Made by a program: the position numbers and the translations under genes
Part shown: positions 43,944 to 53,340 of the stretch, piece by piece
Layout of the letters: each line of letters begins with the position of its first letter
Numbering within the stretch: position 1 is the stretch's first letter
NCBI GenBank assembly: GCA_024637035.1
Contig: JAGXFW010000033.1
Span: 1 to 64,000, forward strand
Length of the DNA stretch: 64,000 nt
Origin: Actinomycetes bacterium
GTDB taxonomy: Bacteria > Actinomycetota > Thermoleophilia > RBG-16-64-13
Direction: 5' to 3'
The notes under the pieces: generated by a model
What the model saw: the letters and a program-made list of their open reading frames with translations, nothing else
The model's database searches: none
Told to the model about the DNA's origin: nothing

Positions 43944-44384
43944 GTGGGGGAACTGTGCTGGGAGATCGTAGGAGACGGCGGTCATGGTGACCGTGGTTGC
44001 CGGTCGTGCCCCGCATACCTGACCGGCTCCGACTGTTGGGAAGTGAAAGGCACCCCCTGCTCGTGCAATCCGGCCATCTGCATCCTCATCGAATGCCCCG
44101 TCTACCTCGTGCATAAGGCTGAGATCGAGAGTCGCCTTGCCCACGAAGACCTCGAGACCATGCTGCGCGCAGTCGAGCGCGTCGCCTCGGGTCAGTGCTG
44201 GGAGATCGAGGAGTGCACCGAAGCGGTGAGGGGCACCTGCCCGGCTCACGCAGAAGGCGCCCATTGTTGGGAACTCTCCTCACCCTGCCCCTGCAGCGGC
44301 GAAGACGGGTTCAGCCGTTGTCTCGTCTGCCCTATCAGGGTCTTCCACCAGCGCAACGCTTCTTCGCCGATCCGCAGCAGCTGA
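43944..44384 (+). CDS. Cys-rich two-CW domain protein, duplicated module
   Basis: This 146-residue protein has 18 cysteines and two similar halves. Each half has a CWEI start, a CPA segment, a second CWE, a PC-x-C motif and a final CP: residues 5-52 (CWEIVGDG, CPAYLTGSDCWEV, PCSCNPAICILIECPVY) and residues 85-133 (CWEIEECTE, CPAHAEGAHCWEL, PCPCSGEDG, CLVCPIRV). The pattern fits the two-CW domain family of unknown function found in anaerobes. Metal or Fe-S binding is likely. It ends 52 bases before the ArsR gene. Confidence 0.75.
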   Translation: MGELCWEIVGDGGHGDRGCRSCPAYLTGSDCWEVKGTPCSCNPAICILIECPVYLVHKAEIESRLAHEDLETMLRAVERVASGQCWEIEECTEAVRGTCPAHAEGAHCWELSSPCPCSGEDGFSRCLVCPIRVFHQRNASSPIRSS

Positions 44385-44401: not shown

Positions 44402-44460
44402 TTGCGCACGCGGTATTCCTCGCGCATAATATATTCATGTATGTCGATACTTCCATACAT
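44402..44460 (+). promoter_or_regulatory. Promoter and operator of the arsR-selenoprotein operon
   Basis: TTGCGC (44402-44407) and TAATAT (44427-44432) are 19 bases apart and predict a start near 44438, almost at the ArsR ATG, so the mRNA may be leaderless. ATGTATG (44437-44443) and CATACAT (44454-44460) form an inverted repeat with a ten-base spacer over the start codon, a fitting ArsR autoregulation site. Confidence 0.6.
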
Positions 44461-44775
44461 AGCACCCGGACCGACGACCCGTCGGAGGCAATACACCTCG
44501 CGCGCCTCGGCCGGTTCTTCAAGGCTCTCAGCGAACCGACTCGGCTTCGGATAGCACTGGCACTCACCGAGGAATGTCGCCCCGTGAGTGACGTGGTGGC
44601 GGCCACCGGTCTTCCTCAGCCCCTCGTCTCTCACCATCTTCGCATCCTGCACGAGGCGGGCATCGCCAAGCCCGATCGACAGGGCAACCAGGTGTACTAC
44701 TGACTGCAACGCGCCGTGGTCCGGGAGGCCATCCGCGTAGCCGAGAAGGCCATCGAGTCGGGGACGGCGTCGTGA
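44437..44775 (+). CDS. ArsR-family regulator with an in-frame UGA near its end
   Basis: Residues 20-88 are a complete ArsR winged helix (ARLGRFFKALSEPTRLRIAL, then GLPQPLVSHHLRILHEAGI, DRQGNQVYY). A TGA follows as codon 89. The same frame continues for 23 codons (LQRAVVREAIRVAEKAIESG) that form a plausible C-terminal helix. It ends in a TGA overlapping the GTG of the next gene. A hairpin of six pairs (44716-44721/44727-44732) with loop CGGGA starts at +13 after the UGA. I annotate read-through as selenocysteine. The short form ending at 44703 is the alternative and would still hold the DNA-binding domain. Confidence 0.6.
44716..44732 (+). promoter_or_regulatory. Putative bacterial SECIS hairpin of arsR
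   Basis: GTGGTC pairs with GGCCAT (with G-U pairs) around CGGGA. The apical loop starts 19 bases after the UGA, within the usual window, and contains G residues. Confidence 0.45.
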
Positions 44776-46025
44776 GCGACGCACCGACGTCCGACGCGCC
44801 ACTCCACGAAGACGCCTCGGGAGGGCCGGCGCAGGGGGGCGCGGAGCCCGCAAACACACAGTCCTGCATCATCTGCGACAGCACGCTCGACTACCTGGAT
44901 TCGGCGGCCGCGCTCACCTGCACCGTCTGCGGGAGTGAGGGTCGGGGGCACGTCGTCTGCCCGCGGGGACACTACGTGTGCGAAGGCTGTCACGGAGCGA
45001 GCTTCATGGAGCGTCTCCCTGGTCTGCTCGACGCGGCCACCTCGTCCTCCCCGTTCGCGATCGCGGAGGACCTCATCGCCGAGACCGACCTCCCCATGCT
45101 CGGGTGCGAACACGCGCACGTGGCGGCGGGTGCCTTGATGCGGGCCCTGGAGAACGCCGGTGTGGCAGGAGTCACCGCCGCCCACAGGGCTGAAGTGCTG
45201 GAGAGGACGGCCCGCCAGGCGGTGAGCGCGTACTGCGGATTGAGTGGCGTGTGCGGGGTCGTGCCTGCCCTGGGAGCCTGCTACAGCGTGCTCGTGGGCG
45301 GTCAGTGCGGCAAAGGCCCGCAGACCAAGGCGGCCATGACCCTTGTCTCCCGCCTCGCGGCGGCCACGGCCGCCGAGGCACACCCGGGCTGCTGCAAAGC
45401 CTATGTGCGAGTCGGCCTCCGCGAAGCCACAGCCTTCCTGCAAGAGGAGTTGGACATCACCTTCGACGCGGCCGCGCCCGTGATCTGCGCCGACACGGAA
45501 CGCCACCCCCACGGGTGCCGAGGCGCGGAGTGCGCCTGGCACCCCGACCACGAGGAGACGCACATGAACGAACCCGATACGGCCGTGCCCACGGCCGGCG
45601 CGGCGTCGACTCTCGGCGGGACGGGCGGCACCGGACCCGCCGCAAAGGCGCGCTACGACGAGTTCTTCGAGCTCGCCTACGCCGACGGCGTCCTCGATCG
45701 CAAGACGAAGATCCTGGTGGCATTGGGGGCTTCACTGGCATCCGGCTGTGCTCCCTGAACTCAGTATTGCCTCTCGGTCGGGAGGCGACTCGGGGTGACG
45801 GACGAGGAGGTCGACGAGGTGCTCCACGCCGCGATGACCGTTGGAGCCACGCGCATGCAGGTGATGCTCTCGCAGGAGGTCGCGCAGCTCGCTCCGGCGG
45901 AGGGAACACCTTCCACGCCTTCTCCCGCCGCGACGGAAGACCCGCGCCCGAGCGTCGCGGCCGACCGAGCAGGGTCGCCCGGGTTCGCCGCCGCCGAGGT
46001 GGTCGAACAGGCGGGTGGTGGCTGA
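44772..46025 (+). CDS. DUF5714-AhpD (carboxymuconolactone decarboxylase-like) fusion selenoprotein
   Basis: The product has 417 residues if the TGA at 45756 (codon 329) is read as selenocysteine. Residues 30-270 form a Cys-rich DUF5714-type domain (CIICDSTLDYL, CTVCGSEGRGHVVCPRGHYV, CEGCHG, LGCEHAHVAAGALM). Residues 290-385 are AhpD/carboxymuconolactone-like (FELAYADGVLDRKTKILVAL). The redox motif reads SGCAP-U-TQYC, that is CxxU where relatives have CxxC. The frame goes on as LSVGRRLGVTDEEVDEVLHA, the normal AhpD continuation, which proves the TGA is internal. A SECIS-like hairpin follows. An ATG at 45564 with GAGGAG upstream could also start the AhpD part alone. Confidence 0.85.
45767..45788 (+). 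promoter_or_regulatory. Putative bacterial SECIS hairpin of the AhpD selenoprotein
   Basis: TTGCCTCTC pairs with GGGAGGCGA over nine positions (two G-U) around a GGTC loop. The loop starts 18 bases after the UGA. A GGUC-type apex resembles the well-known fdhF element. Confidence 0.75.
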
Positions 46026-46042
46026 ACAGGTTGAGAACCCGA

Positions 46043-46061
46043 CGACGCCGGTTCGGCGTCG
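46043..46061 (+). terminator. Hairpin between the two selenoprotein genes
   Basis: CGACGCCG pairs with CGGCGTCG around GTT, 18 bases behind the AhpD-type stop. No T-tract follows, so it may be an RNA-stability element rather than a terminator. Confidence 0.4.
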
Positions 46062-46177
46062 CAGACGGTCTCGGATACCACGGCTACCACGGATCGCCCG
46101 CCGCAGCCGGCATCTGGTTCCACGTGAAAGTAGAAGAGCGGCCCGTGGCGGCCGCCGCACAAGAGGAAAGGGGATCC

Positions 46178-46486
46178 ATGGACCAAGCAGACCAAGAAAG
46201 CCCGCACATCGACCTGATCTCCAAGGGTCCCTCGTGAGTGCTCTGCAATCTCGCCGTGAGCGCGATGGAAGACATACAGGAGGAGAGCCCAGGCCTGTTC
46301 ACGTTCTCGGTGGTTGATGCGTCCACCCGAGAGGGCGTGAAGTGCCTGCAAGAACTGCGACCGGAGGCCGGGCGTCAGATTCCCGTGCCCGGCGTGATGA
46401 TGAACGGAGCGATCATTTTCGACCGAATCCCCGACATGGAAGAGTTCGGGGAATGGCTCGAAGGGCAGACGACGCCCGGGGCCTGA
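46178..46486 (+). CDS. Thioredoxin/glutaredoxin-fold selenoprotein with UxxC motif
   Basis: The ATG at 46178 has AAAGGGG upstream. The frame meets a TGA at codon 20 and continues to 46486, giving 102 residues. The active site reads GPS-U-VLCN, a UxxC motif placed between the first strand (HIDLISKG) and the first helix (NLAVSAMEDIQEE). The second strand (FTFSVVDAS) and the cis-Pro region (IPVPGVMMNGAIIF) complete a thioredoxin fold. Without the Sec codon the fold would lack its first strand and active residue. An imperfect SECIS-like stem lies at 46248-46266. It is the third UGA gene in a row and probably acts with the AhpD-type partner. Confidence 0.8.
46248..46266 (+). promoter_or_regulatory. 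Putative bacterial SECIS hairpin of the thioredoxin-like selenoprotein
   Basis: ATC-T-CGC pairs with GCG-C-GAT with one mismatch around CGTGA. The loop starts 18 bases after the UGA. Confidence 0.5.
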
Positions 46487-46497
46487 CTCCCCGTAGC

Positions 46498-46657
46498 AGG
46501 CTGTTGAAGAATGGACGCTTCGCCGCCAGGGCGCGATGGGCGCGTGCGAGACAAGGAGGCAGGAAGCGCTCGTAGCAGCGCTACGTGCGCGACCGAGGAC
46601 GCCGCATCGCGCCGTCCAGTGCATTCTGGCGGCCAAGGCTTCGATCTTCAACAGCCT
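46498..46657. repeat. 160-bp palindromic element (REP/MITE-like)
   Basis: The element has 13-bp perfect terminal inverted repeats, AGGCTGTTGAAGA and TCTTCAACAGCCT. Inside are further matching arms: CCGCCAG/CTGGCGG, GGCGCGATG/CATCGCGCC, and an AGCGCT-CGTAGC-AGCGCT tip. As RNA it folds into one long hairpin. It begins 12 bases after the last selenoprotein stop and may also end transcription. The remaining bases up to the EamA gene show C/T-rich runs only. Confidence 0.8.
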
Positions 46658-47840: not shown

Positions 47841-48560
47841 TCAGACCTCCAAGTTGCGCAGGTCCACTCGCTTGATGAGGGCACGAGGGGAGGCGGTAAG
47901 CGCCGCCATCACAGCGTGCACCACGTCCTCAGGCGCCAGCTTCTCCCGTCCCGCGAAATCGGGATGATCGGTCATAGAGGTCTCGACCATGCCCGGGAGG
48001 ACGTCGGTGACCTTGATACCCCGGTGGCGCACCTCCTCGCGCAGGGTGTCGGAGAAGCCCATGACACCGTGCTTCGCTGCCGTGTACGCGCCCGCGCCGA
48101 CCCATGCGTGTTCTCCCGCGCCCGACACGATCTGCACGATGTGCCCGCGCACACCACCCGCGGTAGGCGGCTGGCGCAGCATGACACGCACCGCCTCACG
48201 AGAACACAGGAACACCCCAGTGAGGTTCACGCCCAGTGCGGCCTCCCAGTCGGCGAGTGCGGTCTCCTCGATCGCACCGCGCACGAGCGTGCCCGCGGAA
48301 TTGACGACTATGTCGACGCGACCATGGGTGGCGACCGCAGTTGAGAAGAGCCGAGCGACGGCCACTTCATCGGTGACATCGGTGGGGACAGGCAGGGCGG
48401 GCGGAAGACCCGGGATGAGGCACGCCTCGGCCAGTTCCTCGGCCCCTCGGGCGGCGCCGACGACCGAGGCGCCCTCCATGAGGAAGGCGCGTATGAGCGC
48501 GGCGCCGATACCTCGGCTCGCCCCGGTGACCACCGCCGTCTTGCCCTCTAGGGAACCCAT
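47841..48560 (-). CDS. Short-chain dehydrogenase/reductase at the end of the bza-type operon
   Basis: This 239-residue protein has the Rossmann motif TGASRGIG, NSAGT, the catalytic Ser in IVSGAGEHAW and YTAAK with catalytic Tyr and Lys. The C-terminus is normal length. It starts 65 bases behind the second radical SAM gene on the same strand and is probably the last gene of the riboswitch operon. SDRs are not part of the known bza pathway, so its role there is open; it could also be an unrelated passenger. Confidence 0.88.
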   Translation of the reverse strand: MGSLEGKTAVVTGASRGIGAALIRAFLMEGASVVGAARGAEELAEACLIPGLPPALPVPTDVTDEVAVARLFSTAVATHGRVDIVVNSAGTLVRGAIEETALADWEAALGVNLTGVFLCSREAVRVMLRQPPTAGGVRGHIVQIVSGAGEHAWVGAGAYTAAKHGVMGFSDTLREEVRHRGIKVTDVLPGMVETSMTDHPDFAGREKLAPEDVVHAVMAALTASPRALIKRVDLRNLEV

Positions 48561-48625
48561 GTGTGGCGATGTACCCGTGGGCGCCGGGTTCCAGGCACGT
48601 CGGGCGCGGGAAGCGGAGGCGCCGA

Positions 48626-50206
48626 CTACATCACGGACGCCTGCGTGTACCTGACGACCGACCCACGCACGTCGTCCACCACCGCTTGAGCGACGGACAA
48701 CGCGGGGGCGATGCTGCGGTCCTCGAGCCCGTCCAACAGGTCCCGGAAGACGGCCACGAGACTCGCGTTCAAGTCGCCGAGTGCGGACCGGCGCGGGACC
48801 GAGACGCCGGACCCGGGCGGGTGTGGAGCGGGATCACCAAGCCACACCTCCTGCGGCAAGCCGGCGAAGACGTTGCGGCACGCCTCGGCCATCGTCTCCG
48901 CGAGGAATCCCACCTCGGGGTGCCGGTAGGGAATGGTGCCCTCGTAGGGGTTGTGGGGTGACACGACCAGCCGGCCCTCCGCCTTAGCGGAGCTGAAGGC
49001 TGGCGTGCCGGCGAGCATGATCTGCTGGTGGTAAAGCACGTTTGCGGTGAGGCTGAGACGGTCGAGCAACCCCTCTTCCTCGAGGAACGCCAGGTTCACC
49101 CGCACGTCGGCGAGCGAACTGTCGGGCTCGAACATGATGAAACCCACGTTCGGCTCGATGCCGTGCGAACGGAGGATGTGGAGCGCGCGCCGGTTCTGTT
49201 CGACTGTCGTGTGCTTGTTCAGCCGGGCCAGCGTGGCGTCGGACCCGCTCTCGAGGCCGATGAGGATCTCGTCGAAGCCGGCCTTCACCAAGGCCTCCAC
49301 CACCTCGTCGTCGATATCGTTCACCCGGCCCTCGATGCCGAAGCGCACCTCGAGGCGCTCTTCGATCAGCCGGGCCAATCGGAGCACGCGCGCCCTCCCC
49401 CGACCCCTAGGCCCGAAGAAACTCGGATCGACGAAGTAGAAGCGACGCTTGTGCGGGTGCTCCTCGAGCACTGAGGTCATCTCTGCCACCACGCTCTCGG
49501 GCGAACGTGGTCGCCAGTGCGAGCCTCCGCCGTAGAACGGGTTGATAGTGCAGAAGGTGCACGACCCGTAGCAGCCCCGACTCGCCGCCACGTTGACCTC
49601 ACGCAGCGAGAGCATCTCGGGTGTGCGGACGGGCGGGGAAAGGGAGTCCAGGTCGTCGACCAACGGCCGCGGAGGCGCGGCGACCACTCGCCCTCCGATC
49701 CTGGCCGCCGTGCCGGCGACGCCGGCCAACGCCTCCGCCGGCGAACCCCCGCGCCGGCCCCGGCCCCGCCCGACCAGCGCGGCCACGGCCTCCACCACAG
49801 TCACCTCGGGCTCCCCCACGACGACGCCGGCGACACCGGGAAAGCTCGTGAGCAGGTGGTGATAGGCGAAGGTGGGATAGAACCCGTACAACAACGAGGG
49901 CACGCCTCCCGCGGCGGCGGAGACCTTGTCGAGGAGTTCACGGACGTGTGCTCCGTCGGTCCAGTCGTATACCAGGTGCAGCCCGATGAGGTCGGGTGCA
50001 TGCGCGGCCACGCGGGCGGCGATCTCGTCCGTTGCGAGACGGCCGAGATTGCCCTCGACCACGAGTACGTCGTGACCGGCTGCCTGTAGCGCGGCTGCCG
50101 CGTACCCGGTCATCAGACTGCTGGAGAGCGGAGTGTTGGCCACATCGTTCATGTGCACCCAGCTCGACCGGCGTGGGTGTTCGATCAGGGCGATCCGGGC
50201 ACTCAA
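48626..50206 (-). CDS. B12-binding radical SAM enzyme (BzaE-like)
   Basis: This 526-residue protein has an N-terminal cobalamin-binding region (about 1-150, SLMTGYAAAALQAAGHDVLV) and a radical SAM domain with SRGCYGSCTFC (C-x3-C-x2-C) near residue 210, followed by FYFVDPSFFG and EILIGLESGSD. It overlaps the preceding radical SAM gene. In known anaerobic 5,6-dimethylbenzimidazole operons two such enzymes, BzaD and BzaE, methylate the ring. Position suggests BzaE, but assignment between the two is by order only. Confidence 0.8.
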   Translation of the reverse strand: MSARIALIEHPRRSSWVHMNDVANTPLSSSLMTGYAAAALQAAGHDVLVVEGNLGRLATDEIAARVAAHAPDLIGLHLVYDWTDGAHVRELLDKVSAAAGGVPSLLYGFYPTFAYHHLLTSFPGVAGVVVGEPEVTVVEAVAALVGRGRGRRGGSPAEALAGVAGTAARIGGRVVAAPPRPLVDDLDSLSPPVRTPEMLSLREVNVAASRGCYGSCTFCTINPFYGGGSHWRPRSPESVVAEMTSVLEEHPHKRRFYFVDPSFFGPRGRGRARVLRLARLIEERLEVRFGIEGRVNDIDDEVVEALVKAGFDEILIGLESGSDATLARLNKHTTVEQNRRALHILRSHGIEPNVGFIMFEPDSSLADVRVNLAFLEEEGLLDRLSLTANVLYHQQIMLAGTPAFSSAKAEGRLVVSPHNPYEGTIPYRHPEVGFLAETMAEACRNVFAGLPQEVWLGDPAPHPPGSGVSVPRRSALGDLNASLVAVFRDLLDGLEDRSIAPALSVAQAVVDDVRGSVVRYTQASVM

Positions 50207-51714
50207 CAGGAAGCCTCCTCGGTGGGATAACGGGCGCCGGTGCGGCGACTCGCATGCAGATGGTGCCTCTCTTCCAGCTCGTAGCGCAGATGCTGGTAGG
50301 GCGCGGGGTCGTGATAGGTAGGGAACAACAGGTGGTCCTCGGGTTCGAGTGTTCCGGACGCGACGAGCTCCTCGGCAAGAGGTGTGCCCGGGTAGACCCG
50401 TAGGTTGTTGAACACGATGGCCCCGAGGTTCTCGCGGGGATTATGTATGTCGTGCAGGCGGTCGACCAGTTCGTGCGCACCGGCCACCACCTCCGAGTCG
50501 GTGCCGGGCACGTTCGCCATGAAGTGGTACACAGAGAGCGCCTCGGTGCCGGCCGCCGCCCGGGCCGCGCCGAGCACGTCGCCGAGCGTGAGGCCCTTTC
50601 GCAGCCGAGCCAGGGTGCGATCGCAGGTGCCGTCACCCGAGAACTGGAAGGCGGCGCACCCCGCCTTCACCGCAAGCTTCGCGTCGGCCGGAGTCAGGAC
50701 GTCTTCGCGGAAGAAACCGGTCCACCGCACGGGCAGACCCCGATCCACCAAACGTCCGCAGACCTCGCGGAAGTGCCCAGCTGGGTAGTTCAACACCGGG
50801 TCGTTGAAGTGCACCCACTCGGCTCCGGTCTCGCGATGAAGCGCTTCCACCTCGGCCACGATCGTCTCCGGACTCCGGTAGCGCAGGCGGCGCCCTTGAA
50901 GAGCGGGATACACGCAGTACGAACAGCCAAGAGGACAGCCCCGTTTGGTCTCGACCCCTGCCGCCGGCGCGTAGCTGGTGCGTCCCGCATAGGAAGCGGC
51001 GAGCTCCGGGAGCCAGGTGCGCACCGCGTCGAGCGCGACCTCGGGAAGCCACGGCCGGGCCGGACCCTCGATCAGGCGGGTGCCGCGGTCGACGGCGGAG
51101 TCCGCAGCGTCGGCGATGGAGCCCGAGGCGTCGGCGATGGGGCCGGTGTGGGCGGCGCAATCGGCGGAGCCCGTAACATCGGTGGGCCGGGCCTCGCGCA
51201 CCCGGACGATCGTGCCCGGCGTCCCCGCGAGATGAGCCACATCCGCTCGGAGATGCTTTGCCGCCCCGGATGGCCGCGCGCTCCGCTCGAGCCCGGCGAG
51301 GACCTCAGGGAAGGTCGCCTCCCCCTCCAAGAACACACCCACGTCGACCGCGGGATACCGTTCCATGATGGCCCGCGGGAACATGGAGAAGCCCGCGCCT
51401 CCCACCACCAGCGGGACGGACGGGAGCCCCCTCCGTACGACTTCGAGCAGTGCGCCGAAGGCCGGAAGGAAGGAGTGGCGGCGGTTGGCCAGGGGATCGA
51501 TGTTGCGAAGCCCGATCCCCACGACCTGCGGGTCCGATCGCCCCAGCGCCGCCGCAAGCGCCGGGAAGGGGTCGGTCGCCAGGTTGAGGTCGACCAGCTC
51601 CACGTCGTGGCCGTGGGCGCGGGCAGCGGCGGCCACCGCCGCCAACCCGAGGGGAGCCACGATCTCGGCGTGGGGGCCTTCCACCGACGGTGCCTGTATG
51701 AGTAGAACGCGCAC
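50203..51714 (-). CDS. B12-binding radical SAM enzyme (BzaD-like)
   Basis: This 503-residue protein has an N-terminal B12-binding domain (VAPLGLAAVAAAARAHGHDV, GIGLRNID), then an Ala/Asp/Ser-rich linker of about 40 residues (ADASGSIADAADSAVD), and a radical SAM domain with KRGCPLGCSYCVYP (C-x3-C-x2-C) near residue 255. It starts three bases after the methyltransferase gene and overlaps the next gene. The order after cobT and a methyltransferase is that of bzaD in the Eubacterium limosum operon. The variable linker is unusual for the family. Confidence 0.8.
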   Translation of the reverse strand: MRVLLIQAPSVEGPHAEIVAPLGLAAVAAAARAHGHDVELVDLNLATDPFPALAAALGRSDPQVVGIGLRNIDPLANRRHSFLPAFGALLEVVRRGLPSVPLVVGGAGFSMFPRAIMERYPAVDVGVFLEGEATFPEVLAGLERSARPSGAAKHLRADVAHLAGTPGTIVRVREARPTDVTGSADCAAHTGPIADASGSIADAADSAVDRGTRLIEGPARPWLPEVALDAVRTWLPELAASYAGRTSYAPAAGVETKRGCPLGCSYCVYPALQGRRLRYRSPETIVAEVEALHRETGAEWVHFNDPVLNYPAGHFREVCGRLVDRGLPVRWTGFFREDVLTPADAKLAVKAGCAAFQFSGDGTCDRTLARLRKGLTLGDVLGAARAAAGTEALSVYHFMANVPGTDSEVVAGAHELVDRLHDIHNPRENLGAIVFNNLRVYPGTPLAEELVASGTLEPEDHLLFPTYHDPAPYQHLRYELEERHHLHASRRTGARYPTEEASC

Positions 51715-51717
51715 GGC

Positions 51718-53340
51718 TTACCCGACCAACAGCAGCCCGACGTACGTCGCCGGGGAGTCGCGGTCGGGGACGGGTTCGAGGCGCCACCCTACGGCAGCGG
51801 CGGTGGCGTAGACATCCATGCCGCTGGCCTCCATGGAAGGCCGCGCCTCGGCGGGGTGGCGGCAGTGGTCGGGCTCGCAGTCAGAGCACAGACGACACGG
51901 TCCCGCCACGAACGCGAGGGCCCTTGGGGCGCCGCCGAGAAAGGCGGCACGCTCCAAGGTCAACATCCGACGGTGGAACTCAGCGGTCGGAGGCTCACCT
52001 TCCACGAGCAAGGCCTGGGTGTAAGAGGCGAGCACCGTCCGCGTCTCATCCGCCTGGGGGGAACGGGGTGGGCACTGGCCGCCCGAGCCGTAGCCCCCGC
52101 AGCCGAACCTGCACTTCACCTCCACCCACGGGGCGGTGACCACGTGGGCGGGCGAGATGGCGGCGGTCCTGCGGAAACCGAGGTCGCGCGCGGCCCCGTC
52201 CAACATCTCGAGGCGGTCTACACGGAGTGCCGACAGAACCTCGGGCGTACGGGCTGCCGCCATGAGCACGGTGTCCTCTTCGCCGGGCGTGTCGCCCGCT
52301 CCCAAGGGGATGGGGCCGGCGACCACCAAACCCTGCGACTCCAACCGATCCCGCACCCACTGCCACGGATACGTGCGCCCCTGGTAGGTGTTGATCATCA
52401 TGTGCAGGTCGAAGAAGGCGCTCTTGACGGGACCGCGCCCCGCTCCGTCGGTGAAGAAGTCGTGCACCAGGAGGAGGCCTGTATCCGATATGGCGCCCGC
52501 GGCCCGGTCGAGCAGGGGACCGGAGTCCTGATGCGAGTAGGCGTGCACCACGTTCGAAGCCACGACCAGACCCCAACCAGCCCCGCCTTCGGGCGGGGTC
52601 GGGATCGCCTGGTCCAAGAGGTTGCAGGCGGCGAAGCTCAGCCGCCCTGTGAGCGGAGGCCCGGCGACGACTCGCTCGCTCGATTCCTCCCGCGCAAGCT
52701 CCACCACCTCAGGCATGTCCAGCACCACGCCCCGCCACCCCGGGTTGCGTCGAAGAAGCTCGGCGGCGATCGCCCCCGCTCCCCCGCCCAGGTCGACGAG
52801 ATGCCCAGGGGCCAAGACGGTCGTGTCGAGCCGATCGGCAATGAGACGAGCTTTGTGGCGGGCTACATCATCCATGGCACGCAGGTAGTCGCGAACCCGG
52901 GCGCGGTAGGCTGCCTCGTCGTCGTGCGCCGACTGCTCGAGCGGAGAGCCGCCTCGACGCACGGCTTCTCCGAGCCGGGACCACGTGCCGGCGAGCCGGC
53001 GCCTGTATCTGAGAGAGTCGCCCAGATAGCCCGGGGAGCCGCGAAGCAGGTGTCGGCGAGAGACCGTGGCACAGGCCACCAGCACGTCCCCGGTATCCGC
53101 CCGCTCGTGGAGGGTCAGCAGGCCCAAGCTCGCGAGGGCCCGCACGAACCGGCTGCAACCCTCGCGGTCCGCGTCGCACCGCCGGGCAAGTTCGTCCACC
53201 GTGAGCGCATCTTCCCCCAGGGCTTCGAACACACCGAGTTCGAGCGCGGCGAACAAGGCCTCCGAGAGCCAGGCCGCGGTTGCGAGGTCCTCGATATCTT
53301 GCGGGGTCGCGATGCCGCCCTCTTTGGGCCAGAAGCTCAT
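51718..53340 (-). CDS. Methyltransferase fused to a DUF2284 domain (BzaC-like)
   Basis: This 540-residue protein has a winged-helix dimerisation part (1-110), a class I methyltransferase domain of the O-methyltransferase type (LVDLGGGAGAIAAELL, VLDMPEVVELA, LLVHDFF) up to about 355, and a C-terminal DUF2284-like region (365-535). The latter has VEVKCRFGCGGYG, GGQCPPRSP and FVAGPCRLCSDCEPDHCRHP cysteine clusters, which probably hold a metal or Fe-S cluster. BzaC, the methyltransferase of the anaerobic benzimidazole pathway, occupies this place next to cobT. The DUF2284 fusion is not part of the BzaC known to me. It overlaps cobT by ATGA. Confidence 0.8.
   Translation of the reverse strand: MSFWPKEGGIATPQDIEDLATAAWLSEALFAALELGVFEALGEDALTVDELARRCDADREGCSRFVRALASLGLLTLHERADTGDVLVACATVSRRHLLRGSPGYLGDSLRYRRRLAGTWSRLGEAVRRGGSPLEQSAHDDEAAYRARVRDYLRAMDDVARHKARLIADRLDTTVLAPGHLVDLGGGAGAIAAELLRRNPGWRGVVLDMPEVVELAREESSERVVAGPPLTGRLSFAACNLLDQAIPTPPEGGAGWGLVVASNVVHAYSHQDSGPLLDRAAGAISDTGLLLVHDFFTDGAGRGPVKSAFFDLHMMINTYQGRTYPWQWVRDRLESQGLVVAGPIPLGAGDTPGEEDTVLMAAARTPEVLSALRVDRLEMLDGAARDLGFRRTAAISPAHVVTAPWVEVKCRFGCGGYGSGGQCPPRSPQADETRTVLASYTQALLVEGEPPTAEFHRRMLTLERAAFLGGAPRALAFVAGPCRLCSDCEPDHCRHPAEARPSMEASGMDVYATAAAVGWRLEPVPDRDSPATYVGLLLVG

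Follow-up and report, generated by a model that had tools for sequence, protein, structure and literature searches.

Most of the selenoproteins known from prokaryotes catalyze redox reactions, act as transporters, or bind metals. The table of a 2026 review lists the SAO, Tso, MbdU, MduS, and HUIPC families together with one putative regulator, which is of the FmdB type, and contains no ArsR-family protein (PMC13188914); ArsR and regulators also go unmentioned in the deep-Sep paper (PMC12013277). As far as the citation in that review conveys, MbdU is a metal-binding double selenoprotein (Haft and Tolstoy 2025, cited in PMC13188914). SAO and Tso operons contain several selenoprotein genes each (PMC13188914), and a model exists for an ArsR-type regulator of the Tso system (TsoR, NF045707).

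We analyzed a stretch of 64,000 nt, henceforth the window, from a subsurface actinobacterium in which three neighboring genes form a selenoprotein operon. Like the SAO and Tso operons it has several selenoprotein genes; however, here the regulator itself carries selenocysteine (Sec). None of the operon proteins matched a Sao or Tso enzyme model, and the SAO criterion of a SaoT-type thioredoxin together with other Sao proteins is not fulfilled. Among the NCBIfam models of June 2026 only the generic ArsR family lies above cut-off for the regulator, which we refer to as Sec-ArsR, and literature searches found no Sec-containing ArsR. Thus, an ArsR-family protein with Sec seems to be without precedent in the literature; the Haft papers of 2023 and 2025, which are the key ones, were outside the scope of these searches, and priority is uncertain. 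We read Sec-ArsR as a sensor that uses Sec to detect redox state or soft metal(loid)s and that controls a module of selenoproteins, with a probability of roughly two in three; its ligand and mechanism are inferred, and there are no operator-binding data.

Sec-ArsR and its Cys47/Sec89 pair

The first gene of the operon (44437..44775, + strand, as are all operon features) encodes a 112-aa winged-helix protein that meets the criterion for the ArsR/SmtB family with 77.2 bits against NF033788 (cut-off 55) and 47.4 bits against PF01022 (cut-off 22). Its in-frame UGA (44701..44703) corresponds to residue 89 in the context QVYY-U-LQ. The protein shares the winged-helix fold with metalloregulators such as CzrA, SmtB, and CadC, but it has Sec89 and Cys47 and lacks the CxC arsenic motif. 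Membership in TsoR is not met either, the score being 56.4 bits (87.1 for the relative at locus L079) against a cut-off of 115. An AlphaFold model (pLDDT 83) has a winged helix-turn-helix fold resembling SmtB/CzrA/CadC, and in it residue 89 sits at the end of the second wing strand (residues 85–90), directly before helix alpha5, while residues 48–49 form a short strand. Because the corresponding strand of winged helices usually packs against the wing, residues 47 and 89 are likely near each other, an inference from the model for which the distance is unmeasured.

Cys47 is invariant among the ArsRs that have Sec or Cys at residue 89. None of 27 other aligned ArsRs has Cys or Sec at either position, residue 89 being Ser, Arg, Ala, or Glu. 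In a tree calculated with columns 47 and 89 masked, a single, moderately supported branch (68/78) separates the proteins with Sec or Cys from the others. We found no conserved operator: the ATGTATG...CATACAT repeat around the start codon in the window is not kept in relatives, and in the operator palindrome search L079 has TTGATATAAACG/CGTTTATGTCAA. As a separate observation, a small Cys-rich protein with repeated CWE motifs and no family match is encoded upstream of the regulator (43944–44384); it is 90% identical in L069 and 55% identical in L070, where its gene lies ∼3.6 kb upstream.

The MbdU-like and thioredoxin-like proteins and gene neighborhoods

The stop codon of Sec-ArsR (TGA, 44773–44775) overlaps the start of the second gene (GTGA), which spans 44772..46034. 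Its product consists of a Cys-rich, zinc-ribbon-like N terminus, a DUF5714 domain (about 45036–45539; PF18978) and an AhpD/CMD domain (about 45636–45848; PF02627), both above cut-off, and a Sec tail. The in-frame UGA at 45756..45758 forms part of the CxxU motif of the AhpD domain (GCAPUTQYC). The protein matches the MbdU model (NF045648) with 283 bits, well short of the cut-off of 600, and this match joins residues 20–264 to model positions 29–273 of 468, the DUF5714 half only. AhpD with CxxU replaces the DUF2284-like half of MbdU. On the evidence of its domain matches, the product of the middle gene is therefore related to the double selenoprotein MbdU by a domain swap, while the curated cut-off excludes it from that family. 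A DUF2284 protein elsewhere in the window (51718–53340) matches MbdU positions 290–450. The DUF5714 domain has invariant Cys and His residues; a fold search of the PDB gave no match, and we found no solved relative beyond weak zinc-finger matches.

Like MbdU, this protein is a Sec protein; the UGA at 45756 is well supported, and a second Sec residue is probable on weaker grounds. The original prediction missed a fourth UGA (46023..46025; EQAGGG-U-TG-stop), for which GGC-TGA is conserved in 7/7 sequences, with a TGA stop two codons later in four of the seven. If it encodes Sec the gene stops at the TGA at 46032, and otherwise it ends at 46025. The hairpin behind it (GACGCC-GGUUC-GGCGUC, 46044..46060) is 95% paired (n = 7) with one compensatory pair. 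The more distant homolog in L079 ends in SDC-U-TP-stop, differing from the GGGU-TG tail in the window, and its Sec fits the name double selenoprotein. No coding signal in the form of third-position bias was found downstream of this UGA. Overall, we consider recoding of 46023 as Sec probable, at somewhat better than even odds. A conserved DAGSAS reading would extend the coding region to 46124; however, the hairpin sequence accounts for it and third-position bias is absent, and we do not claim this extension.

The third gene (46178..46486) encodes a thioredoxin-like protein of 102 aa with its UGA (46235..46237) in a UxxC motif (KGPSUVLCN). It resembles the HUIPC thioredoxin-like proteins (NF047660) in being a small thioredoxin-like selenoprotein with UxxC, matching 86 of 91 model positions with 46.6 bits; however, its motif is PSUVLC and the cut-off of 105 is not met. 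A second, divergent UGA-bearing thioredoxin-like gene (about 48 bits) was seen at another place in three of the related genomes (L109, L110, and L111). Directly behind the operon lies a 45-nt imperfect inverted repeat (73%) with a 70-nt spacer (46498–46657), either a small mobile repeat or a terminator-like element.

The genes that adjoin Sec-ArsR differ among the sister loci. In L079 they are an MtaA-like methylcobamide methyltransferase gene and an MbdU-like gene, in L081 an MtaA-like gene alone, and in L080 genes for an MduS-type methyltransferase and a DUF2284 protein; an MduS-type methyltransferase is also encoded beside L090 and beside the Cys-containing homolog L091. The MtaA-like protein of L079 (5443–6492) was additionally seen to end in Cys-Cys-COOH (APCC). 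In the window a convergent group on the − strand comprises an SDR (47841–48560; syntenic in L069, L070, and L073), two B12-binding radical SAM proteins (48626–50206 and 50203–51714; both in L073 and one, partial, in L070), and the O-methyltransferase/DUF2284 protein mentioned earlier (present in L073). This group (47841..53340) is a possible functional partner of the operon, which is not shown. One of the two radical SAM proteins is near BzaD (380 bits; cut-off 450).

The chief alternative to the sensor reading is that the operon serves general thiol and peroxide defense, in which Sec-ArsR would sense oxidants by forming a bond between Cys47 and Sec89, the AhpD and thioredoxin-like proteins would reduce peroxide, and metals or organometals would play no role. 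The AhpD/CMD match above the Pfam cut-off, the thioredoxin-like UxxC protein, the obligate Cys/Sec pair, and the BigR/SqrR-type thiol-sensing ArsRs among the relatives with solved structures all speak for it. However, DUF5714 and the zinc-ribbon-like cysteines make up the largest part of the MbdU-like protein, and the sister loci contain MtaA, MduS, DUF2284, and MbdU genes and no peroxidases. Furthermore, the AhpD domain scores best with fusion proteins, namely the arsenite-methyltransferase/AhpD selenoprotein (ArsM/AhpD, NF041537; 102 bits) and MduS (NF045649; 73 bits), which share the Sec AhpD module, whereas the MbdU-like protein has no methyltransferase domain. Taken together, the neighboring genes in the sister loci and in the window favor, as far as gene content can indicate function, a chemistry of metalloids, organometals, or methyl groups rather than simple peroxide defense; no substrate is shown. 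Peroxide defense remains a minority possibility. The closest families and the neighboring genes, namely MbdU, MduS, DUF2284, and the MtaA-type methyltransferase, indicate metalloid or organometal chemistry no less than the redox role originally proposed.

Reading of the in-frame UGA codons

The original prediction placed in-frame UGAs at 44701, 45756, and 46235, with family-consistent frames continuing past them. Reading TGA as Sec bore out these positions: each is the only stop inside its frame (46023 being counted as the gene end), and the matches to HTH_metalloreg (77 bits), CMD/AhpD (51 bits), and the HUIPC thioredoxin model (47 bits) span the UGAs of the regulator, the AhpD domain, and the thioredoxin-like protein, respectively. 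Its main refutation test was absence of selA, selB, selC, and selD. The source genome (34 contigs, 100% complete) encodes SelA (549 bits) and SelB (345 bits) in adjacent genes, tRNA-Sec on the same contig (72.6 bits; cut-off 47), and SelD (402 bits). Therefore, the test does not refute Sec insertion, and the criterion that a bacterial selenoprotein be accompanied by SelA, SelB, tRNA-Sec, and SelD is met. The selD gene (L018, G000:C7:14250-15176) itself has one in-frame TGA and is of the Sec type.

The apical loops start 19, 18, and 18 nt after the UGAs of the ArsR, AhpD, and thioredoxin-like genes, matching the predicted distances of 18 or 19. The hairpins occupy 44716..44732 (stem 44716–44721/44727–44732, loop CGGGA at 44722–44726), 45767..45788 (9 bp, loop GGUC at 45776–45779), and 46248..46266 (loop CGUGA at 46255–46259). 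That they are SECIS-like gained support from comparison of sequences and none from single-sequence folding, which was not significant (z = −0.39, −1.27, and +0.48); therefore, we relied on the comparison. The ArsR stem lies 16–21/27–32 nt from the UGA, a spacing shared by 9/9 sequences, 96.3% of cells are paired (n = 9), three of six pairs have two-sided changes, and the covariation score was reached by none of 500 shuffles and was far lower in slid controls. The AhpD hairpin is 90.7% paired over six sequences with two compensatory pairs; the thioredoxin hairpin is 86% paired over six sequences without covariation. The criterion of a SECIS after the UGA is met with covariation for ArsR and AhpD and more weakly for the thioredoxin-like gene. 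Among the 1542 TGA triplets in the window, 6.9% are followed at the corresponding place by a hairpin with 6 bp or more (the level of ArsR and thioredoxin) and 0.7% by one with 9 bp or more (the level of AhpD), and the chance of all three hairpins together is ∼3e-5 if they are independent.

Five related loci from the same family keep the order of ArsR, DUF5714, and thioredoxin-like genes, and their genomes are subsurface and other Actinomycetota MAGs. Including the window, the UGA is kept in 6/6 ArsR and 6/6 thioredoxin-like genes, and that of AhpD in 5/5 AhpD-bearing operon copies and in L079; the copy in L073 lacks the AhpD domain and is thus outside this count. We searched for ArsRs in 18 genomes of the family, 397 of the phylum, and 399 of the class. 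Matches above 100 bits have TGA at residue 89 in 11 loci from 10 genomes, extending to about 39–47% identity, with the single exception of L091 (genome G159), which has Cys; in the remaining ArsRs, none of which exceeds 76 bits, TGA is absent from this position. The Cys homolog that was to be looked for thus exists, and its genome lacks selA, which was found in 9/9 other UGA genomes checked and in the window's own, against a background of 188 of the 399 genomes in the class. The criterion of a UGA at a Cys-equivalent site is met for ArsR through L091 and for AhpD and the thioredoxin-like protein through alignment of CxxU and UxxC with Cys motifs. This apparent tracking of the Sec machinery by the Sec/Cys exchange is the strongest single argument for recoding. 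Sec-ArsR was not found in the Desulforudis/Clostridia genomes with DUF5714 or in the genome of L074. Genome G076 was seen to have a second Sec-ArsR at a separate site (L081:5409-5783), upstream of an MtaA/URO-D gene. Although there is no protein or mass-spectrometry evidence and the inference rests on comparing sequences, the UGAs of the three neighboring genes are almost certainly read as Sec.

For the regulator alone, the UGA could instead be a true stop that yields an 88-residue protein without alpha5 and leaves AhpD and the thioredoxin-like protein as the only selenoproteins. Differences by codon position after the UGA number 0/0/4 for AhpD and 5/4/21 for the thioredoxin-like gene (third position 21/30), and the comparison of the window with L069 shows no such third-position bias for ArsR (6/2/3), as a true stop would have it; this stretch comprises only 23 codons, and the lack of bias is partly due to the SECIS overlapping it. 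In contrast, coding bias follows the UGA in the L079/L080/L089 subclade (6/5/13 and 6/4/12). A true stop is also at odds with 11 loci that hold UGA and never another stop codon, with the Cys homolog, with a covarying hairpin at fixed distance, with a frame that reaches a stop overlapping the next start, and with the occurrence of Cys47 only together with Sec or Cys at residue 89, and we regard it as improbable. Genome-wide reassignment of UGA to an amino acid, which several UGAs in a row might suggest, is more improbable still given that TGA also ends neighboring genes and the operon genes themselves, the Sec system is complete, and the UGAs occupy catalytic Cys-equivalent positions. That the UGAs result from errors in sequencing or assembly, or from nonfunctional genes in decay, is merely a general possibility in draft genomes and is already refuted, in agreement with what had been predicted, by the recurrence of the UGAs in independent assemblies from different sites with frames intact and Sec machinery present.

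A putative Sec-based switch

The redox system governed by an ArsR switch, as first proposed, is plausible and only partly shown. By analogy with its family, Sec-ArsR would act as a dimer that represses the operon to which it belongs, with the Sec89/Cys47 pair as the inferred sensing site. A soft metal(loid), organometal(loid), or oxidant may join or bridge the two residues, either by selenenylsulfide formation or by soft-metal coordination, as inferred from the pair itself; the wing and alpha5 would then shift and the operator would be released. The induced proteins would be the MbdU-like metal binder/reductase with DUF5714, the AhpD CxxU, and a probable C-terminal Sec, and its UxxC thioredoxin-like partner. 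These may bind, transfer, or reduce the sensed compound, probably alongside a pathway of methyl or corrinoid chemistry.

From the GTGA overlap we infer translational coupling, by which downstream output would depend on selenium. A bolder and doubtful extension is that Sec-ArsR founds a class of transcriptional sensors that rely on Sec and, in addition, makes the operon depend on the supply of selenium. If selenium were lacking, translation would stop at 44701, giving a repressor without the alpha5 helix and breaking the coupling to the downstream selenoprotein genes, so that the switch would sense selenium status in addition to the soft metal(loid) or oxidant signal.

If Sec-ArsR is a sensor as we propose, the roles of Sec would come to include direct transcriptional sensing by a winged-helix DNA-binding protein, which would provide a defined test of why cells put selenium in a switch. 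It would also place a DUF5714/AhpD double-selenoprotein variant, a thioredoxin-like selenoprotein, and corrinoid methyltransferases in one testable regulon.
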